The notes below the pieces were generated by a model. It was not told the origin of the DNA. It searched no databases and saw only the letters and a list, made by a program, of their open reading frames with translations. From a virus, in the IMG/VR virus record IMGVR_UViG_3300021961_000163, positions 1 through 45,976 of that record: DNA of 45,976 nt. One strand, written 5' to 3'. How positions within the stretch are numbered: position 1 is the stretch's first letter; the number at the start of each line of letters is the position of its first letter. The translations under genes and the position numbers were made by a program. This document shows positions 7,676 to 26,329 of this stretch, piece after piece.

Positions 7676-10600
7676 ATGTCTATAAATAAGGTCTCCCAAT
7701 CTGTTGCTAACCAGACACCTCAGTTTGTTGATGATTATAGTCCTTTATTCAATAAATTTATTGAATATTACTATAAGTCTCAAGAGAAAACTGGGTATGG
7801 ACAAAATATACTCAACGAGTTTTTAAACTACTTAAACATCGATAAACTCGATGTTGGTATTCTTGGCGGTGCTACAACTACTGTAGATGATATCTCTACC
7901 ACAGATGCCACAATCTTCGTAGAAAACGTTGACACGTTTTTGGCTAACGACGGTAGTGTATTGATTGACGATGAAGTCATTTACTACGAGAAAGCTGTAC
8001 AATCTCCTAGTATTGGTCTGAATCCTGGTATTTCTTATGAGCAGGTAAAATTAAAGTGGAGCGCACTTGCAAATCTGGTTGAGTTGTTTGATGGTGTTAC
8101 GACTGAGTTTCGTTTAACATCACAAGACACTCCTATTTCTCCCCCCTCGGCAGCACATTTGATCGTGAAAATCTACGATCAATATTTGATCGCTGGTGTA
8201 GATTATACTGTTTCTGCTGATCGAATCGTATTTACAGAAGCTCCTAGAGCAAGATTGACCTCGGACTCCACAGAATTGAGTCAGATCACTTATTTGAGTG
8301 GTTTTGTTGAGAATCCAATCTATACTTTGGATAATATCTCAGGATCTTTTGGTGAAGGAAAGCGTACCTTCAGAGTATTCAGAGATAATGTACAATATCA
8401 ACCAATTGTAGATGAGTATGTAATTGCAATCTACGATGGTCAAATTTTAACTCCTAAAACTGATTATGCTTTTGATGGATCTTTAGTCACTTTCTCCTTT
8501 ACCCCTATCACTGGTAGGAGACTAGATCTATTTTCCATTGAAGCACCAATTCCTTCGTTTGGTAATGGTGCAGTTGGTTACTCTAGAGTCAATGATCAGG
8601 GTCAACTAACTTCAGTTGAAGTTTCTGATGGTGGATCTCAATACAGATTTGAGTATCCTCCCAAAGTCTCTATCAAACCTAATGGTAATGGAAGTGGTGG
8701 ATCTGCCACTCCTCTTATCAATGGTATTAAGAATGTAACTCTGCTAAAAGGTGGTAGAGGATATAGTGATAGCAATCCCCCTACAGTTAGCATTGAAGAT
8801 CCAACTAAACCAGGATCTACTGTAGCGATTATTAAGGCAAACGTTGTAAATGGCAGTGTTACTGGTCTAGAAACCCTTTCTTCTGGTAGTGGATACACCT
8901 TTACCCCTAGAGTCACTTTCGTCCAACCTGGCGGCGCTGTGCTTGCCGAAGCGCAAATGGTATATGGTGAGAATGGTGGTAGTCTTAACGGCGCTCCTGC
9001 TATCATCAATGGTGGTCAGGGGTATACTACTCCTCCCGAAATTTATGTGGATGAGCCTACTGGACTCAATCCCATCAAAGCATCTCTTAGAGCAAACTTA
9101 ACTAACGGTGTTATCACATCTATCACCGTGTTAAATGCTGGTCAGGGTTATAACTCTCCTCCTAGAATTGCTGTAATTAATCCAACTGGAGCACAGGTTT
9201 TACAAACGACCGTTGATGGCAATGGTCGAGTTATCGACATCGAACTGCTTAGCGGTGGTAGTGGATATGAAGATATTCCTTCGGTTTACATTGTAGACGA
9301 TAGAATCGATACCTCTGGTGTCTATATTGGAGGTACTGGTGCAAAAGCAACTGCATCCATCTTCAACGGACAAATTACTGATATCAACATTACCGACTTT
9401 GGTAGTGGTTATAGTGCTGTCAATCCACCTCAAATTGTTATTCAGGCACCTCCTCAAGCAGAAGCTTCTGTAGAAATTGGTCTTAATGAAATCACTGGTT
9501 TCAAAGTAATTAATAATGGACAAGACTATGAAAGATGCCGTTTTGAAGGTTGTGCTAGAGCAGCAAGTGCTATTACTTCATATACCCAAAGAGGTGAAGC
9601 AGTCTTCTCTAATGAAACTACAGCAGCAGAGCATACCAGTGGATCTGTAGTTAAGTGTCTAGATGCACTCTTTGTTAAGAGATTACTAGACAAATATATC
9701 AAGCAGTTTTTACCTGACATCCCTGAGTTGGATTATGACTCTATTGATGTTAGAAACGCTATCAAAAATATTAAAGATTTTTATTCTACAAAGGGCACTT
9801 CTTATAGTGTTTCTTATCTGTTTAAACTACTTTATGGTGAGAATGTAAGTATTACATATCCCAAAGACCAGATCATCAAACCATCTGCTGCTACTTGGGA
9901 AATTAATACTGTACTTAGAGCAACTCTGGTATCTGGTGATCCTGCAAACATCAAAGATGCTTTGATTGAGCAAGTTGAAGATATTGCTGACCCTAATATC
10001 AAGAATGCTAGTGCTCTAGTTGAAAACTTCATTTCTATTGCTACTTCCACAGACATCATCTATGAATTGGTATTGTCTGAGGAAACAATTGTTGGCACAT
10101 TCTTGGTGCCTTACAAAACAAAACTTGCAGAGCCTCTTGGCGAAACAAATAACATCATTACTGTTGACTCTACAATTGGATGGCCCGAGAGAAATGGTGA
10201 GTTTGTAATCGATGAGACTGAAGTCGTACAATATAAGGAGAAGTCCCTAAACCAGTTTATTGAATGCACCAGAGGCGTTGGTAGTGTAGCTAGGATCTGG
10301 GATTCTGCTACAGTCGTTACTTCAAACTTCCAAGTATATCTGAATCGTGGCACTGCTCAAGAAGTAGTGATGAATGTTGTTGGTATTGTTGATGCTCAGC
10401 AGACCACTCTAACTGATACTGGATCTTACTATCTACCTGGCGATAAACTGACTGTATCTAAACTGGGTGGTAGCTCTAACGAACCTCAACTTACCACTTG
10501 GTTGTATAACGTTAAGAAACTTCTTGAAGTTGAATCTGTAACGTTTGGTGGTATCAATAATCAATCTGCTACTGTTACTACAAGTAGTCCCCATGGTCTG

Positions 10601-13600
10601 CTGGTAGGCGATCAGGTGACAGTTTATGGTGCTAATCCAATCATCTATAATGGCACCTTCCTAGTAACATCTAGAGATTCTTCTACTGTATTCCAATACA
10701 CTCTTGCACAACCTGCAGCAGTTGTGCCTCAAGGTAATATTCTAATCTCGGTTGACCTTAACAAGGGTAAGTCTGGAAGTGATGCTATCAATAAGGCAAT
10801 CAGTCCTTACACTACCAACGTACAAAACTCTTTCTTTAACAGAGAGTATGTTTACGTTGCTTCTACTGGTATTCCAAACTATGAGATTGGTCCTTTCTTA
10901 GGATCTGCATTCCTACCTGGCAACCAGAGAAAGTTAAATCGTTTCCCATTCGAGATTACAACGATTTCGACGAAGGATGAAACAAAACCTGGATCAATCG
11001 GTACTTGGGTAAATGGTGTTTCTATTCTTTCATATAAGTCAACTCAAAAGAAAACTTTCGGTGCGGTAACATCTATCTCCATCGACAATGCAGGCACTAA
11101 CTACGATGCTGCAAATCCTCCTACCATGACAATTTCTAGTGGTGGTGGATCTGGTGCTGCTGCAACAGTAGTTGTTGATGGATCTTTAACTGATATTGAA
11201 GTCATCAATGGTGGTAGTGGTTATACCTCTTCGCCTCTGGTTTCAATCGTCGGTGGCGGTGGATCTGGTGCTTCGGCAACCGCTATCATCACTAAGGGAG
11301 TTGTTTCTAGAATCCTTATTAACAATGGTGGTAGTGGATATACTTCCCAACCCCTAGTCACAATTGTTGGTGGTGGTGGCAGTGGTGCAACTGGTGTTGC
11401 ATCTGTAAGAGGTGGTATCAAGGAAGTTAACATCACTGCTGGTGGTGCATCATACACATCAGTACCTATAGTATCTCTGAGCTCTGGTCAGGGTGCTGTT
11501 GCTCAAGCAATTGTAAACAATGGTAGAATCATTTCTATCGCAATTATTGCTGCTGGTAGTGGATATACTACTGCACCTGAAGTAACTATTCAGGGCGATG
11601 GTTTTGGTGCAATTGCTAAAGCAACGATTGATACAGATGGCGAGAATGCTGGTAGAGTAACTGGTATTCAAATCCTCAATAGAGGTATTGGATACACTCA
11701 AGGTTTGACTTCTATCGGTCTCAATTCGATTGGTCAAGACGCTAAATTTACCGCTAATGTCTTTGAGTGGACATACAACCTACAAGAGACTGCTAACTTC
11801 GATAGTGCTCAAGGTACTCTGTTTGAAGGTCTGAATATCCAATATGGTGGCGAATATTCGCATATTTCAAATCCCCAGAGATTGAGATATCTACTGGGTG
11901 ACAATCTATTTGTAAATGGTATTGGTCTAATCAAAGAGCAAGAGACCTCTCTTGAGCACTCTCCTATCATTGGATGGGCATATGATGGTAATCCCATTTA
12001 TGGTCCTTATGGATATTTGGATCCTACTGATCAGAGCTCTGAGATTTCGAGAATTAGATCTTCATATGCTTTGAAACCCAATCTGATCTATGACGAAGAA
12101 ACTAATATTGTACCTGCTAGAATTGATGGTCCTGCTTTAACTACGGATCCTTCTGGCACATATATTGATGACTATCAATATAATTTTGGTAGTGGTGATC
12201 TGGATCAATATAACGGCAGATTCTGTAAGACACCTGAATTTCCAAGTGGTAGATATTGCTATTTTGTTACCATTGACGCTACAGAAGATGGTAATCCTGT
12301 ATTCCCTTATGTTTTAGGTCCTTCTTACAACTCTGTTGTTGATATTTGGAATCTTCAGGATTCTGCAATTCAGCAAAATATTCCTACGGGTGTTGTACGT
12401 TACAGAGATCCTTATGAAAACGTAGATATTGACGTTGAAAGGACTCCCAACGCATCTACAAACGCTCTGACAACTGAAGCTGGAGACATTCTTCTATTTG
12501 AAGTAGAAGATGAGAATAGAGACGGTATTATCGATCAAGCAGAGATTGATGATCCTGAAGAAATGTTTGAGGAGTCTCCTCTCCAACTATTTGATTACTT
12601 CCCTTCAGTCAAATTTGACTCCAAAGTTGATATCGAAGTTGAAACAATCACTAGATTTGAAGATGCATCGGTAACTGGATTTACAATTGAAAATGCTGGT
12701 GAAAACTATCAGGTCAATGACAGACTGGTCTTTGATAACACCGATACTGGTGGATCTGGTGCTTCTGCTCGTATTTCTAAGATTAAGGGTGAAACTGTTT
12801 CTGCATATACATTTGAAACGGTAGATAATATCAATTATGGTATTCTTACTACCGAAGATCCTCACAACCTAGTTATTGGGGACAAGGTTTTCGTTGATTA
12901 CACCCCTGTAACTGAAAATACTAATAAAGAGTATACTGTCAGACAGTACAAAGGTATTGAAGAAGTTGTTGTTAATGTAAATGGTGCAGGATATAACACA
13001 GATATTCCTCCTACTGTTGTAATTGACGGTGATGGAGAAGGTGGTGAAATTGAAGCAATTGTTAACCAAGTTGGTGCAATTACAGAATTCAATATCTTGA
13101 ATTTTGGATCTGGATACACTAAAAATCCTCGTGTTATTCTTTCCCACCCACAAGTCTTCAAAAAAGCAGATTACTACGTTTCCACCATCGGTCATGGCAT
13201 CAATGATGAGAGACAAACTGTAGTCAATGATGTATTTGTTGATGAAACCAAAGAAGTTTATCTCTGTGGATATACAATCGACTCTGCAGGTGATCGTATT
13301 GGTGTTATTTCCAAACTCAATGCAACTGGTGTCAAAGTTTGGGAAGTTACTGTTGTACCTAACCAACCTGATAATCTAGAAGCAAAATATCTCAGCTTCA
13401 ATAAACTTCTTATTGATGGAAATGATATCTGGGTAGTTGGTGATGTTAGACCCAACAGACTTATCCTGGATGGTTACAATCCAGACATTTCTCTGATCAA
13501 ACTCACTCAAGATTCCAATGGATTAACAGCAAACCTGACATTCCAAAAAGCATATGCTGGTATTTCTGGATCAACTAGAGCCGACCATGTAACTTCCTTA

Positions 13601-16600
13601 GAAAAAATCTCTAACACCAGATTTATCATTGGTGGTTATACAAATACAAACTCTGCCTATCCATATGACGCTTTCTTAGCAGTACTTGACACTACTGGTT
13701 CATTTACTGTCAAGAGAAAACTTGCATCTACTACCAAATCTGAAAAAGTTACCGATATTGTTGTTGGTGAAGACGGTTATATCTATTTCACCATGGAGAC
13801 TGCTGCTAACTCCACTACAACTGATTTGAATGTAGCATTTGGTAAGGTATCTGTTACTACAAATACGATTGATGTTGCTTGGATCAAAGAGACCAGCAAT
13901 TCCTTATATTCTTTCACAAATTCAAGTCTTGCCGTAGACGAATTTAATGAATACTACATCACTGCTGGATTGAGACTGAAAGCAACCCCGACTACAAAAG
14001 ATAGTTTCTGGGTTGGTAAATTTGACACTGATGGTGCAAAAATCTGGGCTTATCGTTATGTTGCTCCCGTTGATGGTCCTGTCGATGTTGTAGACACTAC
14101 AGAGATTGATATTTTTGGTGATCTCAATCTTGCTTACACTCAAACTGATTCAACCACTTCTAAGACAACAGTTTGCACTGTTAAGGTTAAATATGATGGT
14201 AGCATTCAGAAGCACACCAAAAATGAGCTTGCTTCCAAACTAGCATCTACTACTAAGAATAAAATCGAAGGTTTTGCTGCGAAATCTCTTGCAGTTGACG
14301 AATCTGGTGACGTACATGTATTCGGTCAGAGCAAGTGGAATAGAAATGAGTTTATTCTCAAATTCGATAGCGATGAATCTGATCTCACCGAGCATTACAA
14401 TCCCATTGGATTTGGAACTGGTGGATCTTTCTTAATTGATGAAAATGTTGCAAAGATCTATGGATACCAACCTCTAGTTAGCACAACCGTTTGGGAAAAT
14501 GCATACCTGAAAGTACCTGGCACTGAATTAACTACAGTTTTAAATGATGACTGGACATTAGAATTCTTTGTCTACAAGGACTCCACAGAGTCGCAAACTC
14601 TATCTCAGGGGTATCAGACCTTAGTTGGTATTGGTGGCGCTAGAGACGCTACTGGAGGTCTCTGGTTGGGTTATGATCAGAGCACTGGTAATTTAAAACT
14701 TGTCATTTCCGATAATACCACTCCCATCATTAGTGCGGGTGCTGGTCTGTCATCTACACAGACAACATTATTTGCTAATGACACCTGGGCGAAATACTCT
14801 CTGCAAAGAAATGGCAATACATTTGTCGTATGGGTAAATGGCGTCCAAATTCTAACTGGCACGGGTAGCAACTTGTCATTTGGCAATAAGGATCTGTATT
14901 TTGGTAACCAGATTGGTTGGGGTCCCACTGCTACTGACTTTGCATCTGATCGCCAGGGACAATTCCGTTTAGATCACGTTAAACTCAGAAATAGAGCGGT
15001 TACTCCTACCGTACCTAGCGATATTGTAACAATTCCTTCTGCTGGTGCATTCCCCTTCGCTTATGACTGGACTGATGATGCTTGGTTTACTAATTATCTA
15101 AATCGCTATGATTATGTAAACTATCAAGGTCTTGGTATTAAGATTGATAAGAATACTGATAGCGTAAGACTTGGCACTTTTGATATCTTCACAAATTCTG
15201 AAGTCAAACTAGTAAGATCTGCAATCACTCCTGTAGTTGGAGTTGATGTAACAATTACCACTGTCGGTTATCCCCTTTCCGATCTTGGATTCCAGTCTCT
15301 CAACTATGATGACGCTAATACTGTGTATACAGTCAGCGGAAGTGGTGTACAGGGTGGATCTACACAACTGACATATGAGCAGGATGTATGGTCTGGACGT
15401 ACTGCAACTATCCCTGCACCTGGATCGCAGAAAGTTAAAGCAACAGCAATTGTCAAAGATAGATATTTCTTCAAGGTTACAGAGACCTCGAAGATTGATA
15501 ACATCATTGGTCTTCAAATCAATCAACCTTTCAAATTCACTGTTGGTGCAAAATTACTCTTAAATACCGAAGCTGGTGCTTTTGTTAATAGTGGTTACAT
15601 CACTTCCTTGGATTATGAAAATAACATCGCCTATGTTGCTATTAACAATAATACCTGGACAGATGATCTGAATACTGGTGTGCTTTCTACTGAAAGATTT
15701 GATGAGCAAAGCACTTACGGAATTCGTGGTCCAATTCCTGATGATGTTAATGAAATGCCAGCATATCAGTTTGTTGAGGTTGGATTTACTCCTTCTATTG
15801 GTGAGTTTTCTATCAATCTTGCAAACTTTGATGTCCCTGAATACCTTGGAATTGGTGGCACTAATAATCTGGATCAATATGCAAGATTCAAACCATTCCT
15901 AGTTGATCAATATCAAGTAAAGATTGAGGAAGTTTCTGGTGTAACCAACTATGTTGTTGGATCTGTTGTCAATCTTTCTTCTAATCAAGTTTCTTATAAT
16001 CCTGATTACACTCAAATTGATATCACAGGTCTTACTGGTGTAACAAAGATCACTCTGATCACCAACTTGAATAAAGTCCTTCAAGTAACTGGCGTAGTAC
16101 GTAGTGATCTAGTTTATGTCATCACTTCGTCTGCTCACTACCTATCGTCTAAAGAAAATATCTTTGTTGATGGTAACCCACAGGCATCTGATGAGTATAA
16201 TGGCGCATTCTCTGTCAAAGATGTAATCGGCGTTAAGGAGTTTACTTATCAACTTTCTGCTACCGCAACTACAGATCCATCTGTAAATGCAGGTAGTGTA
16301 AGTATCTTTGCTAAGTCTCCTACTCTCAAGATGTATTATGGTCATCAGTATGTCTTTGATTTGAGCCACTCCTCGATGAGGGATGCAAACCTTTCGTTTG
16401 CAAAGGATAGTCTCTACAAACTAGAATATTCTTTCAACTTGATTACCAGAGAAGGAATTCCTGGTGTAACTGGTGGTGGAGTAGGAGCTTCAACAGTATC
16501 CTTCACGGTTGCTCGTGATCAGGTTACTAATATTTCTTACTACTTCGATCCCTCCAGACCTGGCGATGATTCTCCTGTAATTCCTGGTAGTTATCTGGAC

Positions 16601-19600
16601 GTTGTTACATCTCCTTATAAGGGTGAATTTGATATTACCAGCACCTCTGGTGGTACTATTACCACTGGCGATGATACTATGAGATTCCCTCTTCTCAATG
16701 AGCCAGAAGGTCCTGCAACGGTATCCTCGGCATCTTATTCAACTAGCTCTGAGAAAGCAGTTGGATCTATTGCTGACATTCGCATTGTCAACAAAGGTGG
16801 ATTCTACACAAGACTTCCAATTATTTCTGATATTCTTTCCAATAGAAAGATTGAAAGAGTGCAGATTAATGAGCCTGGCACCGAATATGCTGTCGGTAGA
16901 TATGACAGTGTGCCTATTAGTGGCGATGGCGAGGGTGGTTTCGTATCACTAATTGTAGATGATACTACCGATGATTTTGGTAGCACAATTCCTGGTCAAA
17001 TTATTAGTGCAACAGTTACCTCTGCAGGTAAGGGATATACCACTGCATTCATTGATGTTGAGTCTATCCCCAATATCCTTGGTCCTGGTTTAACTGGATC
17101 TGGTGCAGATCTTGAAGTTGTTATTCCTCCCTTTGGTACTGGTGCTGCAATCTTCACCAAGGGCGAAAACGTTGGTAAGATTAAGAAACTGAAGAATAAT
17201 AACTTTGGTTATGATTATCCCCACGACTACACTCTCCGCCCAGAGATTACATTCCCAATTAATGCTCAGTTAACTTCTACTAGCATTCTCTCTAGCATTA
17301 CCGTAACCGATCCTGGATCTGGTTATTCTCAGGCACCTGCTGTTGTCATCACTGGTGGTGGCGGATCTGGCGCTATTGCTGAGGCATCCATTAAGAATGG
17401 TCGTTTAGATAGCATTATTGTTAAAGATCCTGGATCTGGATACTCGTCTACTCCTGATGTAAGTCTCAGATCTTCTTTCAACTATGTCATCAACCTTGAC
17501 CTGGGTCTTCTGCAGTTTGCATTCCCACATGGCATTCAAAATGGTGCTCCAGTATCATTAAATGTTGTTGACACTGGTGACGGAGCAGAATTCCCTCTAG
17601 CAGCTGGCGCATTGGGTAGACTGAATGGATCTACCACATATTATGCAATTTCTGGTACTGCACAATCTCTTGATGATGATCAACTGAAACTTGCAATCAC
17701 CGAGACAAACGCAGAGCTAGGTGATGCAATTTCCTTTGCTAACGTTGGGACAGGTAGACAGCAAGTCTTGACTGAATCCTTTGGTGCGACTGCGGTTGCA
17801 AACGTTACCACTTCAATCTTCCTAGAAGGTGAATTGGTTTATCAGGGCGATAGCATTGAAACTGCTACTGCAACGGGTTATGTTTCAACTAACGAAGGTT
17901 GGCAGATCGGTCCTAGAGTCCTGAAGATTATTGACTATGAAGGAAACTTCATTGCTGGTGAAAGACTTACAGGTGTAATCTCTAAGTCCTCTGGTATCAT
18001 TAGCGATATTAAGATCGCTACTGGTGTCCTTGAAATTGGATCTATTACTCAGACTACTGGTCAGTTTATCGATGACGTTGGTAAACCCTCCGAAATTATC
18101 CAGAGAGTACAAGATTCCTTCTACTACCAAGACTTCTCTTATGCTGTTAAGTCTTCGGTTTCTATCAGCGACTGGAAAAATATTCTAATCAAGAATGTCC
18201 ACCCAGCATCTTTCAAAGTGTTTGGTGAGTTGAATCTGGATGAATATGCATTTATTCCTAACAAAGAGACTGCATTCCAGTTAACTAAGTCGGTTGAATT
18301 GGCACAACAAGCAACCGTACCTAACATTCAAAACTTTACTCTGGTTGAGCCTGTTTATCAGGAATTCAATAATACTGAAGTACTATTCAGACAGAAGAGA
18401 TTGACCTCTTCGGAGAATATTCTGACCTCTGTTGTCCAAAGAATTGATGATGTTTCTAATCTCTTTGATGGTATTAGGACTGCCTTCCCCCTAACAGTAC
18501 AAGGGGATACCGTTGTTGCTAATGCCAATCAGATGATGATCATCTTGAATGGTGTTACTCAAACTCCTGGCACATCATTTACAATTCAGGGAGACTCTAT
18601 TGTCTTCTCCGAGCCTCCTCAACCAGATGCTAGTGTAAGATACGTTGTCGTTGAAATTGAGCAGATTAATACTCAAGAAATGACATTCAGTAACGTATCT
18701 GGTATCTTCCCCAACCCAGGTATGACAGTTGTTGGTGGATCTTCTACTGCAAGATTCACGGTAACTTCTGTTGTTGGTAATTCCATCTTTGGTTTCAAAA
18801 CAACAAACACAAACTTTATTCCTGGTGAATTGGTAACTGTCGGTGCAACTGGATTTGCTGCCAACATCACAACACTTACTAATATTGTTAATAATGGATT
18901 GTTTATCTTCGGTGAAACTGTAACTAACTTTGAAGGAGATACCGCTAAAGTTGAAGAGATCAACCTAGAGAAGGGTCAAGAAATTCCCCGTGCTCTTCTG
19001 AGATACACAATTGGTCTTTCTACAACTCAGTTTGAAGTTATTCAAATTGATGGTACAGAAGCACCACTTCCTGATGGCACATTTACTATCGGTCAGAAAT
19101 ATCAGTTTGGATCTGAGCTCTTTGAAGTTACTGGTATTACGAATGGCGATCAATCTACAACTCTTACTGTCCTTAGAGGTAGGGATGGCACAACTTCAAC
19201 TCAACAGTTGGAAGATTCTCCAATTTACGGCACTGAAATCACTATCACCAATAGATTGATTCTCAGTAAGACAACTGGTACTTATCAGTCCACTCCTGGT
19301 CTATATGATATTCAACTCAACGATATCGTCGTTGCTGCTGGATCTGGAGTTGTTGCGAGAATTGTTTCTACTCAGGTATACACGGATCCCGTAACAAATG
19401 AGCCCATTCCTTCGGTTACCATCTCTGACGGATCTTCTTTCTTCGGTCTACTGTTTAACAGACTGATTTCTACAACATATCCTAACGCAATTATCGATGA
19501 TATTGGATCTTCTCAGATTTCTATTGTTGATTTTAATGATAATGAGAGTCCATTTGATCTCAGATTCCCCACTAATGAGTTAGTCAACAATTACATCATT

Positions 19601-22600
19601 AAGTCTTCTAATGAATCTGGTGATTTTACAGAAAATGAGTTTATCAGAAACTTCACTATTGATTATGGTAATGCTGTTGGTCAACCTGTTGCTGGTGATG
19701 AGGGAATTGTCAGAAAACTCTCTTATAAGATTCAATCTACAAATGGAAGTGGTTTCTTCAATCCTGGTCAAATTATCAGATCCAGAAATAGTAAGGCAGA
19801 AGTAATCGGTTACAGCCAAGCAAGAAGAGTCGTCTTCCTCGGTAAGATGGGTCGTTGTAAGGGCACTGGTGAAGACTATCACACTGCTACATTTAATAAC
19901 TCTGCTCAGTTAGATACTGCTCAGAAGAAATTTGGCAATACTTCTTTACTACTTGATAGTGCTACTACTGATTACTTGTCTATTCCAACTTCCACAGAGT
20001 TTGGATTTGGTACAGGCGCATTTACAATTGAATGTTGGATTCGTCCAAATGATGTCTCTGCTGGTGACAGACATATCTTTGACATGAGAGATAATGGATC
20101 TGATGCCAATGCTGGTAGACTTTATATTGCCACAAATCAATTACGTTTCAATATTGGTGGTAGTGATATCCTTACATCTGGTGCAACAACACTTGCTGCA
20201 GATACTTGGTATCATGTTGCAGTTTCTAGAAATGGCACATCAATCAAGATCTTCATTGATGGTAATGAAGTTGGCAGCAATACAAATAGCACTGATTTGG
20301 GATCTACAAAACGTATCTTTATTGGATCTAATTTTTCTGCATCTAATGTTTTCTCTGGACATATTGATGAAGTACGAGTTTCCAATACTGCTCGTTATAC
20401 TGAAGCATTTACACCACGCAACGGAATCTTCCAAGGTGACAATAATACAAAACTACTATTACACTTTGAAGGTGCTGATGGGCAAACATATACAGATGAT
20501 TGGTCTGGACAAGCATCTTGGGCAGAGGGGGATCAGTTTGCAAATGATGCAATTCTAGAAACCTCCAAACTGACTGGATCTCCTGCTGGATTCGTTGGAA
20601 AAACTCATAGATACTTAGATTCTGCAAACCTACTGAAAGCAAACGCAAAATTCCTTGCAGAAGAAGTTGTTGCTCAACTTCTAGTACAATATCCCAGTCT
20701 GGTCATTCCTGGTGGAAATATTAATTGTGTAGATGACCTTGAGGATGTTGTTGAGCAGATGGTTGAGGATCTTAGAAATGGATCTAACAACCATATGTGG
20801 GATGCTGCTGCAATTTATGTTGATCGCTCTGCTAATCCTGTAACTCTCAATCATATTGAGACTGAAATTGACGAAACTATCTGGGCATACACCAGACTTA
20901 AGGATCTTGCTAAGGAAGTAATCAATAATCTCTTGGTTACTGTTACTGGATCTCACGGTTATACTCAGGTTACTGATGCAAGTCTCACCGACTCGTCTTC
21001 CTCTGTCCTGTCTACATTTACTCCTACAACAGGCACAACTTACGATCCTGCAACTGGCGTTTTGGTGCTGGAGATTGGTAGCCATTCTCTTACTACTAGC
21101 AACAGAATCACTCTTGCAGAAGAAGGTTTAGTCTTTACTTGCACTGATGATGGAAACCTCCTACAACTGGCACATCCTCGCTCAACCGATCCCGCTTTCG
21201 AGAAAGTACTTCCCATCACCGCAGTAACTGCTACCACAATTACAGTCAATGTTGGTAATGCTGGTAGTGCATCTGGCAGCGCCCACACATTTGTCAGTGC
21301 TACCTCTGGTGCTGTAATCGTATTAGATTACACTAGTGCTGACTGTGCCGATGTTAAGAATACCATTGATTCCTTGATGGATATCTTAATCGATACCTTA
21401 ACCGAAGCAGATACTCCTACCGTTGCCACAAATAATACTGGCGATTGGTTGGGTACTATCACTAAGGTATCTCCCGTATACGAGTATATCGGTGCAGTTG
21501 CAGATGGATTTATTGATGTGCCCTTTGATATTTCTTATCATGATGCTGCAAACGATATTGTTTACACCAATCAAATTGATCTTTCATCTAGAAATAGATT
21601 CTACGATGCTGCTAATCTGATTCGCCTCAATAAGGCACCAATTGTAGATAAGACTGCATATGATTTGATTCAACGTTATCCCGATCTGGCGCTGGATATG
21701 CCCAGAAATGGAGATGGTAGTGGGTCTGGTACTGCTAGATGCAAGACTGACCTTGGTCTAATCCTTGATAATATCGCTAAGGATATTGAATCTGGTGGAA
21801 ATGAAAATACAATTCGTGCAATTGAAAGCTACTTAGGCGTCAATGACGAAATTCAGCACATCAGACTCCAATTGCTCCAGTCGTTGTATGCACATACAAG
21901 ACTTGGTTACTACATGAAGCAAGCGATTAATGGTGATCTGACTGAAGATAACACCGATAATGTTATCGTCGGTGACTGGGGCATCACTAATGATCCTGGT
22001 GGTTGTGCAAATGTCCAGACAGCAATTGATACTCTTATCGATCTTGCCAATGACATGCTTGCTCCTACTGGTGATCGTTATAGAGATGCTGGCGATCTCC
22101 TCTACTTCAATAGAGACTTTATTGCCGATGAAACTGTTGGACACATTGACTCTACCCTGTCTTATGTCCTTGGTAATACACTTTATCAGTCCTTCCAATA
22201 TCCTGATGGAGTTAATGGTAGAGATAGGTGCAAGGTTGATATTACTCTAGTAATCGAAAGTCTAATCACTGATCTTTTGACTGGTGGCAATAGCAATACT
22301 ATCAAGGCAATTGAGTTTTATGTAACTTCTAGACTCGGTATCAATTTTGTTGAGGATCAAATCCTTGCAACGCTTGAAGCATACAATCATGTCAAATTCC
22401 TTGGCACCAAGGCAATTAACAATCTCCTGTATCCAAGAAGCAGCGCCACAACTGGCGATCAATATGCAGCACAATACACTTCGCTTGCTCCATATCGTGA
22501 TGCAACAATTACTGATTCTAATGGTGGGGTATACTCCGATTCGGATTGCGCTGATGTTAAGCAAGCCTGGAATACCTTAATGGATACCCTTATCGATACT

Positions 22601-25600
22601 CTTTCGCCTTCTGGTGATGTCGGTAAGGCAGTTAGTAAACTGGTCCTATTCAACAAAAACTTCTATAAGGAAGAACTTACTCAAGAAGTTGATAGGCAGT
22701 GGGGTCCTGGTACTTGGGTTTATAACGACTTTATTGATGGAATTGTAGACGATGTGATTCATGACGTTGTAATTACCGATGTTAGTGATGATAACATTCG
22801 TTATCAAGAAACTTACACTATTGATGTCAGAATCTTTGGCACTCGAATCAGCGAAGGTGCCATCGTCGAGCAAAGGACAGCGCCTGTAGGTGGCACCGTT
22901 CTTCGCACAGCAGTTGTTTTAGAAGTATTCCAAGATACATGGTATGGCATTTCTAATAACCCAGGTATTGACTCGCTATTCTTGAGCAGCATGGTGATTG
23001 CTGAGGTTGAAGATCCATTCAATACTGGTAATGCACCTGATGATGGTCCTTGGCAAAATAGTGGTTATCATTGGTATGTTGGATATCCCACCGATCCCTT
23101 TTACACGCAAGCGCAGATTGCCACATATGGTCCCAACCGCTTCTGGGGTGACCTTAAGGTACCTTATATCGACAAACCTGCAAATATTCAAACCATAGCA
23201 AAAGCGCAGACTATTACTTCGCTAATTGATAATTTTAGTGTTGGCACTAACTTATGGCAATTCCCCGAATTCTTTACTTACAACTGGAATAGAGTTGGAA
23301 CGACAGTATATGAAAATTCTGATCTCAGTCCTGATGGCACTTATACCGCAGATAGAGTCTTCTCCTCTGGTGGATATTATGGTTACCACTTCCTGTATAG
23401 AGATTATAATCTAACCTCATATGAAACTTTTGATAACGGATTCCTAAGATTCGATAACGTAAGTAACACTGGATTTGATGATGGTAGCACAGACACTACA
23501 CAAACCTATACGGTTTCCTACTTCGTAAAAGGTCAACTTCCATATCCTACAAGTTACTGGCCCAATGATGGTGCGAAGTACATTCGTTTCCAATTGCAAT
23601 TGATCTCGGCTGGTGCTCAATCTCAATATGTTTGGTTTGATGCCGACCTACTAAATGGCACTGTTGGTAACGCATTTAATCTTCTTGGTGGTGTTAATAT
23701 CGATGATTATGGAATCATCGGTCATGGTAATGGTTGGTATAGAGTTTATATGACCATCACCTTCGGTTTTGGTTTTGATATTCTTAGATCTGAAACGATT
23801 ATCAGAAGTTTGCAGGGTGCTCTAGTACATGCAGACAACCGATCTGATCGTTACATTCTTTATTGGGGTGCTAAACTTAATAGAGGATCTATTGATGCAT
23901 ACAGATCTACTGGATTCTATACTTACTATCCAAGCACCGAATATAACGTCAAAAAATATGCTCTTGAGAAATTGAGAGTTTATATGACTCAAGCAATGCG
24001 TCTTGAAATGGGTTATAGCGGTCGCTATTCTGGATTCTTAACTTGGGCAGAAGCAAATCCAACTGCATCCAGCTTCTATTTGAATAATGTTGGTTCAACC
24101 GAAGATGGTAAGTATCAGCGTATCGTACGCTATCTCATGGATATCATCTCCAACCAACTGGAGAATACTAATGCTGTTAACAGCATTATTTCTGAGAGTG
24201 GCATTTCTATTCCCAGCAGCACTTATGGTGCTATTCAATATTATCCTGGAATTTGGAGAGATTACCCAACTCCTCTTGGTGGTGGTATCGATCAGGCAGA
24301 TTCTTTCTATGGAAGACTTTCTGATGCCTATGCTGAAGTTTCGCGCCTCGCTGGCAACGAAGCAAAACTAGTTAAGCAATTTAAGAGATTCCGTCTCACA
24401 GGTGACATTATTGATGGTCCCTTTATCATGAATGAAACCTGTCAGAAACAGGGAGATCCTGGCATTACTGGTGTTATCTATGGATTTACTTCTGATGAAA
24501 ACTTCAATTACGTTGATGTTGAAGTAACTGCTGGTACATTCCAAATTGGCGACTTCCTGGTTGGTGCAACAAATAGCACCACGGCACAAATTGCAGCAAT
24601 TGAGAATAGAATTCAAATTACAAAACTTATTGGTGACTTTGACCAAAACGTTGAATTTAAGGGTTATACATCCGATACAACAGCAACTGTTGTTGAGTTT
24701 ATCAAGGCAGAAGCAGCAGTACTTCAAAATACTGGTGGTAAGTTGACTGTTGATACGGAGACTCTAGTTGGTAATTTTGAGACTACTTCGGTCGTTTATG
24801 CAGAAAACTCCGAGCAGTATTTGGATGTTTCCAAATTCAGTGGTCTTGATGTTTCTGTTGGTCAAAGAATTGTTTCTGATGGTTATATCAGATTCGGTGT
24901 CAATGTCCTTCAGGGTCTAGACGACTTCAGAGTTGGTAATAGAATCTACAAGATTGTCAATGGCATTCAAGATGTTAATACATACGCGATTATTACTGAA
25001 GTAGATCTGGATAGTAATTACATTTACGCAACTGCGGTCTTTGGTAATATTAGCAACGGCGATATTATTGGAGACTATGGCGTTGGTGAATCCTTCCCAG
25101 TCGGTTATGCATCTGTCACCTCTAAAGTTTCTGTTGCTGGTCAAGGTGCTGCTCTAGTCCAAGACATCAAAGACGTTGCTCTGAATAAGAGACTTTATCT
25201 GACTGATATCATTGGCAACTTTGACACTAGGGATGCTATTAGAGCAGCATTCCCAGAATCGGGTGCTATCAGCAATGATTACAGAGCAGTCATCACAGAT
25301 AAAGTTGAGTTGAGTGCAAGAGTTAGAAGATTCTTCAAAGGATTTGATGGTAACACAACCACCTTCAAACTCACCACAAATAACGGCGATCCATACTTCC
25401 CCGACCCTGCAGGTCACATGTTGATCTTCATCAACGGTATTCTGCAACCTCCTGGTGCAAATGCTGCTTATACAGCATTCTCTGATACGATTGAATTTAG
25501 CGAAGCACCTGAGTTAGGATCTGCATTTACTGGATTCTACGTTGGTAAACTGAGACAGTTGGATGATATTTCTTTCGACTTCGACTCCTTGAGACAGTCC

Positions 25601-26329
25601 TTCAACCTCAGAAGAGATGGTACATTCTACTCGCTGACTCTGACCGAAGGTGTCCAGTCCACAGTCATCCGCCCAGAAAATAACATCATCGTCTCGCTCA
25701 ATGGTGTTATCCAAGAACCTGGAGTTGGTTTTGAGATTGTTGGTTCTAGAATTATCTTCTCTGAAATTCCTCGCGTGGGATCGACCTTTGTCGCATTCTC
25801 CTACGTTGGATCTGAGGCAGACGTTGACGCTGCAGATATTGTCCCACCAATCGAGCCTGGTGACCTAATCAGCATCGAAGGCGAAGTTGAAGATCGTGAG
25901 GTTGCGGTTATTGAGTCCTCCAACTCCCTAATCACCTTCGATTATCTTGGATCTGTCTTTGGTAAGGATGCTGCTGCGTCGGCCATTCTGACATCGGGCA
26001 CTATCGAGAAGGTATCTGTGACCGCACCTGGATCTGGTTACACAAGCAGACCTAACGTTAGAGTTGACTCCATTTCTGGTTTCGATGCCCAAATTAAGGC
26101 ACTGATTGGTGTTGCTGGTGTTACCATGTCCACTCCTGGATCTGGTTATCAGAATCCTGACGTTGCTGTTGAAAGCACCGTGCCCGATGATTGGACTGCT
26201 CCCAATTTGGCTGCTTATGGTGAAGAGGTGATTGACCCTGAGATTGTTGGAATCCAATCTGCTTCTGCTACGGATACGCTGACAACTGACCCCCCATTAA
26301 TCAATGGCGGCGTCCTTATAAATAACTAA
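7676..26329 (+). CDS. Giant gp7-like baseplate wedge protein, 6217 aa
   Basis: A single frame of 18.65 kb occupies the T4 gene 7 position. Three segments resemble the C-terminal half of T4 gp7: FVDDYSPLFNKFIEYYYK near 17-34; DFYSTKGTSYSVSYLFKLLY near 701-720 (T4: DFYSTKG--ASYKFLFKVLY); and SISDWKNILIKNVHPASFK near 3495-3513. Between and after them lie modules: GSGY beta-repeats (about 300-620, 1130-1350, 3025-3270 and near the end); a YHYH-like domain (1425-1553); an EF-hand loop (1612-1623); a propeller-like stretch (1830-2240); LamG-like domains (2250-2440 and 4070-4275); Cys-marked helical repeats (4310-5030); a carbohydrate-binding-like jelly roll (5180-5420); and 'LNGV-Q-PG' fibre units (130-290, 3590-3660, 5885-6045). 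gp7 lies at the wedge periphery, so extra modules would face outward and could contact cells. It is about six times the T4 gp7 length. No frameshift or stop was seen. Confidence 0.72.
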   Translation: MSINKVSQSVANQTPQFVDDYSPLFNKFIEYYYKSQEKTGYGQNILNEFLNYLNIDKLDVGILGGATTTVDDISTTDATIFVENVDTFLANDGSVLIDDEVIYYEKAVQSPSIGLNPGISYEQVKLKWSALANLVELFDGVTTEFRLTSQDTPISPPSAAHLIVKIYDQYLIAGVDYTVSADRIVFTEAPRARLTSDSTELSQITYLSGFVENPIYTLDNISGSFGEGKRTFRVFRDNVQYQPIVDEYVIAIYDGQILTPKTDYAFDGSLVTFSFTPITGRRLDLFSIEAPIPSFGNGAVGYSRVNDQGQLTSVEVSDGGSQYRFEYPPKVSIKPNGNGSGGSATPLINGIKNVTLLKGGRGYSDSNPPTVSIEDPTKPGSTVAIIKANVVNGSVTGLETLSSGSGYTFTPRVTFVQPGGAVLAEAQMVYGENGGSLNGAPAIINGGQGYTTPPEIYVDEPTGLNPIKASLRANLTNGVITSITVLNAGQGYNSPPRIAVINPTGAQVLQTTVDGNGRVIDIELLSGGSGYEDIPSVYIVDDRIDTSGVYIGGTGAKATASIFNGQITDINITDFGSGYSAVNPPQIVIQAPPQAEASVEIGLNEITGFKVINNGQDYERCRFEGCARAASAITSYTQRGEAVFSNETTAAEHTSGSVVKCLDALFVKRLLDKYIKQFLPDIPELDYDSIDVRNAIKNIKDFYSTKGTSYSVSYLFKLLYGENVSITYPKDQIIKPSAATWEINTVLRATLVSGDPANIKDALIEQVEDIADPNIKNASALVENFISIATSTDIIYELVLSEETIVGTFLVPYKTKLAEPLGETNNIITVDSTIGWPERNGEFVIDETEVVQYKEKSLNQFIECTRGVGSVARIWDSATVVTSNFQVYLNRGTAQEVVMNVVGIVDAQQTTLTDTGSYYLPGDKLTVSKLGGSSNEPQLTTWLYNVKKLLEVESVTFGGINNQSATVTTSSPHGLLVGDQVTVYGANPIIYNGTFLVTSRDSSTVFQYTLAQPAAVVPQGNILISVDLNKGKSGSDAINKAISPYTTNVQNSFFNREYVYVASTGIPNYEIGPFLGSAFLPGNQRKLNRFPFEITTISTKDETKPGSIGTWVNGVSILSYKSTQKKTFGAVTSISIDNAGTNYDAANPPTMTISSGGGSGAAATVVVDGSLTDIEVINGGSGYTSSPLVSIVGGGGSGASATAIITKGVVSRILINNGGSGYTSQPLVTIVGGGGSGATGVASVRGGIKEVNITAGGASYTSVPIVSLSSGQGAVAQAIVNNGRIISIAIIAAGSGYTTAPEVTIQGDGFGAIAKATIDTDGENAGRVTGIQILNRGIGYTQGLTSIGLNSIGQDAKFTANVFEWTYNLQETANFDSAQGTLFEGLNIQYGGEYSHISNPQRLRYLLGDNLFVNGIGLIKEQETSLEHSPIIGWAYDGNPIYGPYGYLDPTDQSSEISRIRSSYALKPNLIYDEETNIVPARIDGPALTTDPSGTYIDDYQYNFGSGDLDQYNGRFCKTPEFPSGRYCYFVTIDATEDGNPVFPYVLGPSYNSVVDIWNLQDSAIQQNIPTGVVRYRDPYENVDIDVERTPNASTNALTTEAGDILLFEVEDENRDGIIDQAEIDDPEEMFEESPLQLFDYFPSVKFDSKVDIEVETITRFEDASVTGFTIENAGENYQVNDRLVFDNTDTGGSGASARISKIKGETVSAYTFETVDNINYGILTTEDPHNLVIGDKVFVDYTPVTENTNKEYTVRQYKGIEEVVVNVNGAGYNTDIPPTVVIDGDGEGGEIEAIVNQVGAITEFNILNFGSGYTKNPRVILSHPQVFKKADYYVSTIGHGINDERQTVVNDVFVDETKEVYLCGYTIDSAGDRIGVISKLNATGVKVWEVTVVPNQPDNLEAKYLSFNKLLIDGNDIWVVGDVRPNRLILDGYNPDISLIKLTQDSNGLTANLTFQKAYAGISGSTRADHVTSLEKISNTRFIIGGYTNTNSAYPYDAFLAVLDTTGSFTVKRKLASTTKSEKVTDIVVGEDGYIYFTMETAANSTTTDLNVAFGKVSVTTNTIDVAWIKETSNSLYSFTNSSLAVDEFNEYYITAGLRLKATPTTKDSFWVGKFDTDGAKIWAYRYVAPVDGPVDVVDTTEIDIFGDLNLAYTQTDSTTSKTTVCTVKVKYDGSIQKHTKNELASKLASTTKNKIEGFAAKSLAVDESGDVHVFGQSKWNRNEFILKFDSDESDLTEHYNPIGFGTGGSFLIDENVAKIYGYQPLVSTTVWENAYLKVPGTELTTVLNDDWTLEFFVYKDSTESQTLSQGYQTLVGIGGARDATGGLWLGYDQSTGNLKLVISDNTTPIISAGAGLSSTQTTLFANDTWAKYSLQRNGNTFVVWVNGVQILTGTGSNLSFGNKDLYFGNQIGWGPTATDFASDRQGQFRLDHVKLRNRAVTPTVPSDIVTIPSAGAFPFAYDWTDDAWFTNYLNRYDYVNYQGLGIKIDKNTDSVRLGTFDIFTNSEVKLVRSAITPVVGVDVTITTVGYPLSDLGFQSLNYDDANTVYTVSGSGVQGGSTQLTYEQDVWSGRTATIPAPGSQKVKATAIVKDRYFFKVTETSKIDNIIGLQINQPFKFTVGAKLLLNTEAGAFVNSGYITSLDYENNIAYVAINNNTWTDDLNTGVLSTERFDEQSTYGIRGPIPDDVNEMPAYQFVEVGFTPSIGEFSINLANFDVPEYLGIGGTNNLDQYARFKPFLVDQYQVKIEEVSGVTNYVVGSVVNLSSNQVSYNPDYTQIDITGLTGVTKITLITNLNKVLQVTGVVRSDLVYVITSSAHYLSSKENIFVDGNPQASDEYNGAFSVKDVIGVKEFTYQLSATATTDPSVNAGSVSIFAKSPTLKMYYGHQYVFDLSHSSMRDANLSFAKDSLYKLEYSFNLITREGIPGVTGGGVGASTVSFTVARDQVTNISYYFDPSRPGDDSPVIPGSYLDVVTSPYKGEFDITSTSGGTITTGDDTMRFPLLNEPEGPATVSSASYSTSSEKAVGSIADIRIVNKGGFYTRLPIISDILSNRKIERVQINEPGTEYAVGRYDSVPISGDGEGGFVSLIVDDTTDDFGSTIPGQIISATVTSAGKGYTTAFIDVESIPNILGPGLTGSGADLEVVIPPFGTGAAIFTKGENVGKIKKLKNNNFGYDYPHDYTLRPEITFPINAQLTSTSILSSITVTDPGSGYSQAPAVVITGGGGSGAIAEASIKNGRLDSIIVKDPGSGYSSTPDVSLRSSFNYVINLDLGLLQFAFPHGIQNGAPVSLNVVDTGDGAEFPLAAGALGRLNGSTTYYAISGTAQSLDDDQLKLAITETNAELGDAISFANVGTGRQQVLTESFGATAVANVTTSIFLEGELVYQGDSIETATATGYVSTNEGWQIGPRVLKIIDYEGNFIAGERLTGVISKSSGIISDIKIATGVLEIGSITQTTGQFIDDVGKPSEIIQRVQDSFYYQDFSYAVKSSVSISDWKNILIKNVHPASFKVFGELNLDEYAFIPNKETAFQLTKSVELAQQATVPNIQNFTLVEPVYQEFNNTEVLFRQKRLTSSENILTSVVQRIDDVSNLFDGIRTAFPLTVQGDTVVANANQMMIILNGVTQTPGTSFTIQGDSIVFSEPPQPDASVRYVVVEIEQINTQEMTFSNVSGIFPNPGMTVVGGSSTARFTVTSVVGNSIFGFKTTNTNFIPGELVTVGATGFAANITTLTNIVNNGLFIFGETVTNFEGDTAKVEEINLEKGQEIPRALLRYTIGLSTTQFEVIQIDGTEAPLPDGTFTIGQKYQFGSELFEVTGITNGDQSTTLTVLRGRDGTTSTQQLEDSPIYGTEITITNRLILSKTTGTYQSTPGLYDIQLNDIVVAAGSGVVARIVSTQVYTDPVTNEPIPSVTISDGSSFFGLLFNRLISTTYPNAIIDDIGSSQISIVDFNDNESPFDLRFPTNELVNNYIIKSSNESGDFTENEFIRNFTIDYGNAVGQPVAGDEGIVRKLSYKIQSTNGSGFFNPGQIIRSRNSKAEVIGYSQARRVVFLGKMGRCKGTGEDYHTATFNNSAQLDTAQKKFGNTSLLLDSATTDYLSIPTSTEFGFGTGAFTIECWIRPNDVSAGDRHIFDMRDNGSDANAGRLYIATNQLRFNIGGSDILTSGATTLAADTWYHVAVSRNGTSIKIFIDGNEVGSNTNSTDLGSTKRIFIGSNFSASNVFSGHIDEVRVSNTARYTEAFTPRNGIFQGDNNTKLLLHFEGADGQTYTDDWSGQASWAEGDQFANDAILETSKLTGSPAGFVGKTHRYLDSANLLKANAKFLAEEVVAQLLVQYPSLVIPGGNINCVDDLEDVVEQMVEDLRNGSNNHMWDAAAIYVDRSANPVTLNHIETEIDETIWAYTRLKDLAKEVINNLLVTVTGSHGYTQVTDASLTDSSSSVLSTFTPTTGTTYDPATGVLVLEIGSHSLTTSNRITLAEEGLVFTCTDDGNLLQLAHPRSTDPAFEKVLPITAVTATTITVNVGNAGSASGSAHTFVSATSGAVIVLDYTSADCADVKNTIDSLMDILIDTLTEADTPTVATNNTGDWLGTITKVSPVYEYIGAVADGFIDVPFDISYHDAANDIVYTNQIDLSSRNRFYDAANLIRLNKAPIVDKTAYDLIQRYPDLALDMPRNGDGSGSGTARCKTDLGLILDNIAKDIESGGNENTIRAIESYLGVNDEIQHIRLQLLQSLYAHTRLGYYMKQAINGDLTEDNTDNVIVGDWGITNDPGGCANVQTAIDTLIDLANDMLAPTGDRYRDAGDLLYFNRDFIADETVGHIDSTLSYVLGNTLYQSFQYPDGVNGRDRCKVDITLVIESLITDLLTGGNSNTIKAIEFYVTSRLGINFVEDQILATLEAYNHVKFLGTKAINNLLYPRSSATTGDQYAAQYTSLAPYRDATITDSNGGVYSDSDCADVKQAWNTLMDTLIDTLSPSGDVGKAVSKLVLFNKNFYKEELTQEVDRQWGPGTWVYNDFIDGIVDDVIHDVVITDVSDDNIRYQETYTIDVRIFGTRISEGAIVEQRTAPVGGTVLRTAVVLEVFQDTWYGISNNPGIDSLFLSSMVIAEVEDPFNTGNAPDDGPWQNSGYHWYVGYPTDPFYTQAQIATYGPNRFWGDLKVPYIDKPANIQTIAKAQTITSLIDNFSVGTNLWQFPEFFTYNWNRVGTTVYENSDLSPDGTYTADRVFSSGGYYGYHFLYRDYNLTSYETFDNGFLRFDNVSNTGFDDGSTDTTQTYTVSYFVKGQLPYPTSYWPNDGAKYIRFQLQLISAGAQSQYVWFDADLLNGTVGNAFNLLGGVNIDDYGIIGHGNGWYRVYMTITFGFGFDILRSETIIRSLQGALVHADNRSDRYILYWGAKLNRGSIDAYRSTGFYTYYPSTEYNVKKYALEKLRVYMTQAMRLEMGYSGRYSGFLTWAEANPTASSFYLNNVGSTEDGKYQRIVRYLMDIISNQLENTNAVNSIISESGISIPSSTYGAIQYYPGIWRDYPTPLGGGIDQADSFYGRLSDAYAEVSRLAGNEAKLVKQFKRFRLTGDIIDGPFIMNETCQKQGDPGITGVIYGFTSDENFNYVDVEVTAGTFQIGDFLVGATNSTTAQIAAIENRIQITKLIGDFDQNVEFKGYTSDTTATVVEFIKAEAAVLQNTGGKLTVDTETLVGNFETTSVVYAENSEQYLDVSKFSGLDVSVGQRIVSDGYIRFGVNVLQGLDDFRVGNRIYKIVNGIQDVNTYAIITEVDLDSNYIYATAVFGNISNGDIIGDYGVGESFPVGYASVTSKVSVAGQGAALVQDIKDVALNKRLYLTDIIGNFDTRDAIRAAFPESGAISNDYRAVITDKVELSARVRRFFKGFDGNTTTFKLTTNNGDPYFPDPAGHMLIFINGILQPPGANAAYTAFSDTIEFSEAPELGSAFTGFYVGKLRQLDDISFDFDSLRQSFNLRRDGTFYSLTLTEGVQSTVIRPENNIIVSLNGVIQEPGVGFEIVGSRIIFSEIPRVGSTFVAFSYVGSEADVDAADIVPPIEPGDLISIEGEVEDREVAVIESSNSLITFDYLGSVFGKDAAASAILTSGTIEKVSVTAPGSGYTSRPNVRVDSISGFDAQIKALIGVAGVTMSTPGSGYQNPDVAVESTVPDDWTAPNLAAYGEEVIDPEIVGIQSASATDTLTTDPPLINGGVLINN
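7681..7688 (+). promoter_or_regulatory. Perfect TATAAATA box inside a start codon region
   Basis: TATAAATA starts three bases after the ATG of the giant gene (codons for Ile-Asn-Lys). It matches the T4 late box exactly, but transcripts from it would miss the start codon, so it may be a coincidence of the coding sequence. Confidence 0.3.
8570..9560 (+). repeat. GSGY beta-repeat block 1 (coding)
   Basis: Roughly 30-45-residue units are built on 'GSGY--PP-V-I' followed by a Gly-rich turn and 'A-I-NG-I--I-I'. Copies include GGRGYSDSNPPTV, GSGYTFTPRVTF, GQGYTTPPEIYV, GQGYNSPPRIAV and GSGYEDIPSVYI. They probably form a beta-solenoid or a chain of small beta-domains inside the giant protein. Confidence 0.8.
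11060..11720 (+). repeat. GSGY beta-repeat block 2 (coding, 117-bp period)
   Basis: Tandem copies include GGSGYTSSPLVSIVGGGGSG and GGSGYTSQPLVTIVGGGGSG, 117 bases (39 residues) apart, first near 11207 and then near 11324. The two are also close at the base level, which suggests fairly recent tandem duplication or gene conversion. More diverged copies follow (GSGYTTAPEVTI, GIGYTQGLTSI). Confidence 0.85.
16750..17480 (+). repeat. GSGY beta-repeat block 3 (coding)
   Basis: Units such as GKGYTTAFIDVE, GSGYSQAPAVVITGGGGSG and GSGYSSTPDVSL repeat the same pattern as blocks 1 and 2. They lie just upstream of the third gp7-like segment of the giant protein. Confidence 0.8.
20600..22760 (+). repeat. 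Cys-marked helical repeats in the giant protein
   Basis: Successive units of about 180-220 residues begin with a '-Y-DA--L---N--FI--E' helix (HRYLDSANLLKANAKFL, NRFYDAANLIRLNKAPIV, DRYRDAGDLLYFNRDFI). They contain 'C--D---I---I--D---GG-N-TI-AIE-Y' and end with a Cys helix (DCADVKNTIDSLMDILIDTL, GCANVQTAIDTLIDLANDML, DCADVKQAWNTLMDTLIDTL). The first unit carries a beta insertion near 20940-21330. The fourth is partial. Confidence 0.8.
26317..26324 (+). promoter_or_regulatory. Late promoter box TATAAATA
   Basis: This is an exact match to the T4 late box, placed at the extreme 3' end of the giant gene and ending 19 bases before the ATG at 26344. It would give a separate late transcript for the 407-residue fibre-like gene and those after it. 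Confidence 0.7.

Follow-up and report, generated by a model that had tools for sequence, protein, structure and literature searches.

In bacteriophage T4, gp7 is a monomer, present once per baseplate wedge, and its assembly with gp10, gp8, and gp6 follows a fixed order (PMC3004832). Its orthologue in XM1 bundles its N-terminal helices with two gp6-type chains, and holds the tail spikes through a loop and its C-terminus (PMC10457771). T4 gp7 has been said to be absent from pelagi- and cyanomyophages, seemingly replaced by VrlC (PMC7029224); Sullivan et al. 2010 placed gp7 in the non-cyanophage core, yet split into many clusters, and PMC5349666 gives identities of 4-7% to cyanophage gp7. An earlier note on the DNA analyzed here held that gp7 is not usually assigned in cyanophages; in fact it is sometimes named in their records (S-SSM7, S-SM2, ACG-2014f, S-SZBM1), and the giant proteins of S-SZBM1 and S-MS29 are called 'baseplate wedge initiator' or 'subunit' in their records. 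The names gp7 or wedge initiator are in use in some GenBank records and in the S-SZBM1 paper, so the assignment is partly known; in the open-access literature searched we found no split-core analysis of the S-SZBM1 and S-MS29 giants, and what is new is the demonstration and the anatomy. We conclude that the giant open reading frame (ORF) described below is very probably gene 7 of a T4-like (Kyanoviridae) cyanophage, with a split gp7 core and looped-out inserts.

A giant ORF directly follows gp6

The window is an entire virus record of 45,976 bases, itself part of a larger phage genome. An ORF with an ATG start occupies positions 7676-26329 of the plus strand and comprises 6217 codons, with a calculated mass of 673 kDa; the mass of T4 gp7 is 119 kDa. 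Upstream lie PAAR, gp25, and gp6, and downstream, in this order, a gp9/gp10-N-like gene, a 1393-aa YHYH protein, gp8, a 2405-aa DUF4815 (VrlC-type) protein, and an open-ended Mtd_N protein. The main genes of the locus are as follows.

5210..5632, + strand: gp25 (PF04965, E 3e-15)
5636..7672, + strand: gp6, the expected binding partner by analogy (PF21379 gp6-like helical domain, E 2.7e-18)
7676..26329, + strand: giant gene, very probably gp7, 6217 aa (ORF; phrog_701 along its full length; S-SZBM1 orthologue in virions)
26344..27567, + strand: gp9/gp10-N-like connector (PF07880, E 1.2e-8; T4 gp10 in the PDB, E 5.1e-6)
31791..33323, + strand: gp8 (PF09215, E 5.9e-19; T4 gp8 in the PDB, E 1.2e-8)
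33323..40540, + strand: VrlC-type protein (DUF4815), 2405 aa, its own gene (PF16075, E 5.9e-65; positioned as the 'VrlC protein' of S-SM2 and HTVC008M)

The giant ORF lies after gp6 and before gp8. The earlier note had placed it between the two, as gene 7 is in T4; gp6 is indeed directly upstream, but gp8 (PF09215, 31791-33323) is not adjacent, lying three genes downstream. Immediately 3' of the giant gene is the gp9/gp10-N-like gene (26344-27567), and gp10 is a partner of gp7 in T4. Elsewhere in the window, an 855-aa protein at 1715-4282 belongs to phrog_719, 'baseplate wedge subunit', and has no significant Pfam match, while the open-ended 1641-aa protein at 41054-45976 carries at its start a major tropism determinant N-terminal domain (PF18454, E 1.5e-13). 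In PHROG, the family of the giant ORF, phrog_701, is classed as 'head and packaging', likely a database mislabel.

Orthologous giant genes occur in the isolates S-MS29 (6114 aa) and S-SZBM1 (6619 aa). The S-SZBM1 product was detected in virions with 71 peptides (PMC9146016), and the 1937-aa orthologue of S-CREM2 was also detected in virions.

Three collinear segments match the C-terminal core of T4 gp7

The similarity to T4 gp7 is carried by three segments of the giant protein.

7685..7843, + strand: core segment 1, N-terminal helices, residues 4-56; matches the T4 gp7 helical domain (T4 residues about 643-689)
9557..9967, + strand: core segment 2, residues 628-764, DFYSTKGT / LFKLLYGE; PDB hmmsearch, hhalign 97%
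18101..18238, + strand: core segment 3, residues 3476-3521, W-K-x4-IKNVHPASF; hhalign 88-93% to T4 gp7, gp7 among the top three PDB sequences

Within residues 4-56 the N-terminal helix reads LFNKFIEYYYKSQE, and the corresponding part of T4 gp7 is Pfam Gp7_helical (643-689). The stretch KDFYSTKGT...YLFKLLYGE at residues 701-723 is part of the conserved block 628-764, and the motif of segment 3 (within 3476-3521) is SDWKNILIKNVHPASFKVFGEL. The order of the segments is identical in all 124 open frames that hold all three.

The segment profiles started from relatives only, with no T4-like sequence among them, and were then widened with compact homologues, much of the alignment set being closely related metagenomic contigs; the T4-like gp7 profile, A2, comprises 12 sequences. 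In hhalign comparisons with T4-like gp7, where each E-value refers to one comparison, segment 2 scored 76.5 (97.2%, E 3.3e-11; shuffle maximum 20.8) and segment 3 scored 41.2 (91.8%, E 7.3e-7; shuffle maximum 17.6). Segment 1 alone was weak, at 23.3 (11%, E 0.0027; shuffle maximum 20.3), and all three, segment 1 included, align at matching places of T4 gp7. When spliced, the core reached a score of 99.8 (98.1%, E 7.7e-14; shuffle maximum 20.4) in a single collinear alignment across all three segments (query 3-234, T4 C-terminal region 5-252), although the homology spans only about 190 aligned columns. None of 100 T4 column shuffles attained the observed score, for each segment and for the spliced core, and the reversed T4 profile gave no match to the segment or spliced profiles. 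The claim of the earlier note that three segments match T4 gp7 in order, with the second and third far apart, therefore holds at the places it named, with the segments searched separately and spliced.

Against 177,635 PDB sequences the segment-2 profile had only two significant matches, both gp7 (4.8e-6 and 8.6e-6; next 0.08), and the segment-3 profile had three matches, with gp7 first and third at non-significant E-values (0.22 and 0.33). Searched against the six frames of the window, A2 matched this ORF only (E 6.5e-7; next 1.9), at residues 698-727 and 3489-3515, i.e. in segments 2 and 3. A tblastn search with segment 2 (E <= 10) returned 45 rows beyond Kyanoviridae, 37 of which are named baseplate wedge or gp7, and T4 gp7 matches the bridging PHROGs 26741, 2885, and 17744 (1.7e-5 to 3.6e-4). 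The Pfam family PF23786, 'Baseplate_wedge', spans the entire bare core of the Vibrio phage YC protein, all three segments included (E 2.1e-50), and is found in the window below the cut-off, at segment 2 (4.3e-4) and segment 3 (0.017). A phmmer search of the PDB with the bare YC core gave no gp7 match, with a profile made from just the compact family gp7 was reached no better than at E 0.28, and NCBIfam had no match on the giant's N-terminal part. None of the T4 domains I-IV, V, and VI was recovered in the giant, the Pfam Gp7 domain models matching T4 gp7 only; we do not hold these domains to define gp7, as the compact homologues are also without them. The sequences show homology of the three segments to the C-terminal core of T4 gp7, in unchanged order.

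AlphaFold predictions had a pLDDT of 54 for a compact 896-aa homologue and 68 for residues 1-1080 of the window protein, with the core below 50 in both. Foldseek ranked gp7 first for the low-confidence model of the compact homologue, but at a TM of 0.08 and not by superposition, and found no gp7 match for the low-confidence model of residues 1-1080.

Complete relatives carry one gp7 core gene each, and VrlC is separate

As the window is a genome fragment, gp7 copy number was checked in relatives. The segment-2 core profile found one gene in each of 14 complete relatives, the sole extra match being 111 bases in S-PM2 (E 0.015, sub-threshold) in a short frame with an internal stop. In the T4 genome this profile found gp7 itself (E 2.2e-8), and A2 had no other match in the 14 complete genomes. 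With A2 limited to this ORF in the window and one core gene per genome in the relatives, there is no clear second gp7; the spliced core matches gp7 and no other gp7 was found, which supports the suggestion that the 'missing' wedge protein is hidden in these giants.

In S-SM2, HTVC008M, Mosig, and the window, VrlC (DUF4815) has its own gene downstream of gp8; in the window, DUF4815 was found only in the gene at 33323-40540 and not in the giant ORF. The gp7-core gene is intact, with all three segments, in HTVC008M (1016 aa) and Mosig (874 aa). The presence of both gp7 and VrlC in HTVC008M, Mosig, S-SM2, and the window contradicts the replacement proposed in PMC7029224.

The core is interrupted and extended to very different lengths

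The protein encoded after gp6 forms a ladder of sizes. At its short end are Vibrio phage YC (236 aa), Mendera (503), pf16 (523), Cr30 (767), Mosig (874), and Melnitz-3 (896); phiM12 (1007), HTVC008M (1016), DLP6 (1288), S-CREM2 (1937), and S-H34 (1942) occupy the middle; S-SSM7 (3007), S-PM2 (3048), Sf-CH1b (3640), S-SM2 (4156), and ACG-2014f (4225) are long; and S-MS29 (6114), the window (6217), and S-SZBM1 (6619) are longest. Every member has the three segments, in order. The 236-aa YC protein is a bare core that stops two residues after segment 3. From segment 1 to segment 2 the gap is 572 residues in the window and about 60-85 in other Kyanoviridae; segments 2 and 3 are separated by 15 residues in YC, about 107 in T4, and 2712 in the window. 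The orthologues of S-H34 and S-CREM2 end 16-49 residues past segment 3, so the 2696 C-terminal residues of the window protein are an addition. A range of 236-6619 aa at the same locus, with a bare core in YC, agrees with the description of the protein in the earlier note as a gp7 interrupted and extended by inserted modules.

The bare gp7 core of the Ackermannviridae (236-280 aa; L299:4596-5306 and related records) is often annotated as 'head closure Hc2', and the gp6-type gene upstream of the YC core carries the name 'RNA polymerase binding protein'; both are apparent mislabels.

The inserts comprise a conserved frame and two fast-evolving arms

Around the core, the giant protein is built from the following parts.

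7844..9556, + strand: insert 1, residues 57-627, beta-rich with GxGY repeats; present in the window and relatives, e.g. S-MS29 and S-SZBM1
9968..18100, + strand: insert 2, residues 765-3475, frame plus arm A, at the T4 domain V site
11768..12280, + strand: YHYH domain in the frame, residues 1365-1535 (PF14240, E 4.5e-31)
12923..16225, + strand: variable arm A, about residues 1750-2850; identity 44-70% to S-MS29 and 21-35% to S-SZBM1, with indels
18239..26326, + strand: C-terminal extension, residues 3522-6217; S-H34 and S-CREM2 orthologues end near segment 3
19673..25225, + strand: variable arm B, about residues 4000-5850; identity mostly 35-69% (up to 71%) to S-MS29 and mostly 20-45% to S-SZBM1, with many indels
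19964..20395, + strand: Laminin-G-like lectin domain in arm B, residues 4097-4240 (PF13385, E 1e-25)

When aligned with S-MS29 and S-SZBM1, the protein has conserved blocks at about residues 1-1700, 2900-3650, and 5900-6100. The inserts are made up of a conserved frame together with two fast-evolving arms, which bear lectin-like and phycobiliprotein-like modules; the arms also hold a weak second laminin-G-like domain. A blastp search of the giant against itself (1e-4) revealed no strong internal repeats. Residues 132-283 (8069-8524) and about 5884-6038 (25325-25789) are alike at 32%, and given that PHROGs 10330 and 18673 match near residue 3590, one domain seems to be present at three frame sites.

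In S-PM2 the gp7 is S-PM2d081 (3048 aa), in which a non-synonymous mutation was selected during coexistence with the host; it is among three exceptionally large proteins that were mutated non-synonymously in a chemostat with Synechococcus (PMC9910659).

Arm B contains phycobiliprotein-like repeats

Three copies of a helical repeat lie in arm B.

20609..20857, + strand: phycobiliprotein-like repeat 1, residues 4312-4394, Cys4351 (profile searches, hhalign)
21596..21862, + strand: phycobiliprotein-like repeat 2, residues 4641-4729, Cys4689 (profile searches, hhalign)
22076..22345, + strand: phycobiliprotein-like repeat 3, residues 4801-4890, Cys4852 (profile searches)

Taken as one query against the PDB, the repeats matched phycobiliproteins or derived proteins in 41 of 41 cases (best E 0.008), and for a 35-repeat profile 44 of 45 matches were phycobiliproteins (best 1.9e-4). 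The top row for the latter profile, the designed repeat protein 7rdr, was set aside as eight summed matches of about 3-4 bits each. In a comparison with 17 non-redundant phycobiliproteins from cyanobacterial genomes, the repeat profile aligned over 71 ungapped columns (hhalign 96.5%, E 7.7e-10) with a score of 55.7, against a shuffle maximum of 16.5 (0 of 200 shuffles as high). The Pfam model PF00502 exceeded its cut-off in a single long stretch (24.7 vs 22.2 bits), fell short of it in another search, and matched 9 of the 35 repeats when they were taken singly. The Cys to which bilin attaches aligns in 162 of 219 repeats, every one of which has Asp at +3, as in phycocyanin, and the Cys-Asp link persists after the removal of similar copies (17/17 vs 5/9, p 0.008); Arg is found at C+2 in 28 of the 162 Cys-bearing repeats. 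Judged by these profiles, the arm B repeats are homologous to phycobiliproteins. Our literature search, chiefly open-access, found no paper on phycobiliprotein-like repeats of cyanophages.

A tblastn search located the repeat in 356 phage records, comprising 283 named Synechococcus phage, 58 'Cyanophage', 14 Prochlorococcus phage, and one 'Marine'; in the phage collection searched it was therefore found only in cyanophages, bar this last record. The repeat profile had no match in the whole genomes of HTVC008M, Mosig, Melnitz-3, phiM12, and T4, nor in those of S-SM2, S-SSM7, S-H34, and S-CREM2. S-PM2 (LN828717) has 13 matches, several of them partial, at 46016-48286 and 156666-160601, in two other large open frames of 3340 and 3792 codons. 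Their lengths suggest S-PM2d088 and S-PM2d218, two proteins that acquired mutations while phage and host coexisted (PMC9910659).

In darkness, adsorption is reduced in some cyanophages (PMC7112961). An explanation of S-PM2 light-dependent adsorption by repeats in its own gp7 was dropped, as the repeats lie in two other proteins, and a link between the repeats and light-dependent adsorption is offered purely as a hypothesis. The phycobiliprotein-derived repeats of cyanophage baseplate and tail proteins might bind bilin from the dying host, though we think this improbable; if true, virions would carry pigment where they face the host, a possible explanation for the light-dependent adsorption of some cyanophages.

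Discussion

By analogy with T4 and XM1, the folded protein would bring the three segments together against a gp6 dimer, giving a (gp6)2-gp7 wedge scaffold with one giant gp7 in each wedge and six in the baseplate. From this core the inserts would loop out at sites where other phages also have extra domains. The arms may form the outer baseplate, where they could touch the host or hold fibres, and may take over some of the roles of T4 gp7 domains I-IV and gp10-gp12.

If gp7 were truly absent from cyano- and pelagimyophages and VrlC used instead, as stated in PMC7029224 and in keeping with gp7 in the non-cyanophage core (Sullivan et al. 2010), the giant would be an unrelated structural protein. 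We give this almost no credence: a separate VrlC gene adjoins an intact gp7-core gene in S-SM2, HTVC008M, Mosig, and the window. It is also very unlikely that the giant is a tail fibre or adhesin that acquired a gp7-like motif by chance or domain shuffling. Most of the protein is adhesin-like (LamG, YHYH, repeats) and phrog_701 is filed under 'head and packaging' in PHROG, but three collinear segments, a fixed place after gp6, one core gene per genome, and a ladder that descends to a 236-aa core speak against this reading.

A gene 7 product with a split core could still carry inserts that are mere filler or spacers without host contact. The high conservation of the frame regions and the GxGY beta repeats that make up insert 1 lend this some weight, and we regard it as unlikely rather than remote. 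Against it, arms A and B diverge fastest, gain and lose blocks, and hold a lectin-type domain, and the S-PM2d081 mutation was selected during host coexistence (PMC9910659). We therefore favor a giant gp7 whose arms face outward from a conserved core.

On this reading of the giant as gene 7, the missing wedge scaffold of marine T4-like phages is located, the claim of its replacement by VrlC is corrected, and a function is given to S-PM2d081, a large 'hypothetical' protein that changes during cyanophage-host coexistence. Two likely database mislabels, 'head and packaging' and 'head closure Hc2', are flagged. One machine part can evidently grow about 26-fold, by modules at a few fixed sites, with its core kept. 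The repeats are unexpected, in that a host antenna-protein domain is reused in the virion of a phage group in which adsorption can depend on light. They resemble phycocyanin alpha in 71 ungapped profile columns, where the Cys that attaches bilin and the Asp after it are aligned, but they match just part of the domain (profile columns 35-105 of 143) and sit inside a baseplate protein.

Among known systems, the giants of S-SZBM1 (S-SZBM1_208, 6619 aa, in virions) and S-MS29 (6114 aa) are orthologues at the same locus. The core of Vibrio phage YC (Ackermannviridae, PF23786) shares all three core segments, but is 26 times shorter than the giant and without arms. XM1 gp17 (242 aa), the T4 gp7 orthologue, has a (gp6)2-gp7-type scaffold, as compared by its published description (PMC10457771). 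T4 gp7 itself (PDB 5HX2, 5IV5) is alike in its three collinear segments, its place directly after gp6, and the gp8 and gp10-like genes downstream. Unlike the giant, whose core starts at residue 4, it has about 640 residues ahead of a compact core; in the giant, stretches of 572 and 2712 residues divide the core and another 2696 come behind it. T4 gp7 thus grew in front of the core, and the cyanophage proteins grew inside and after it.
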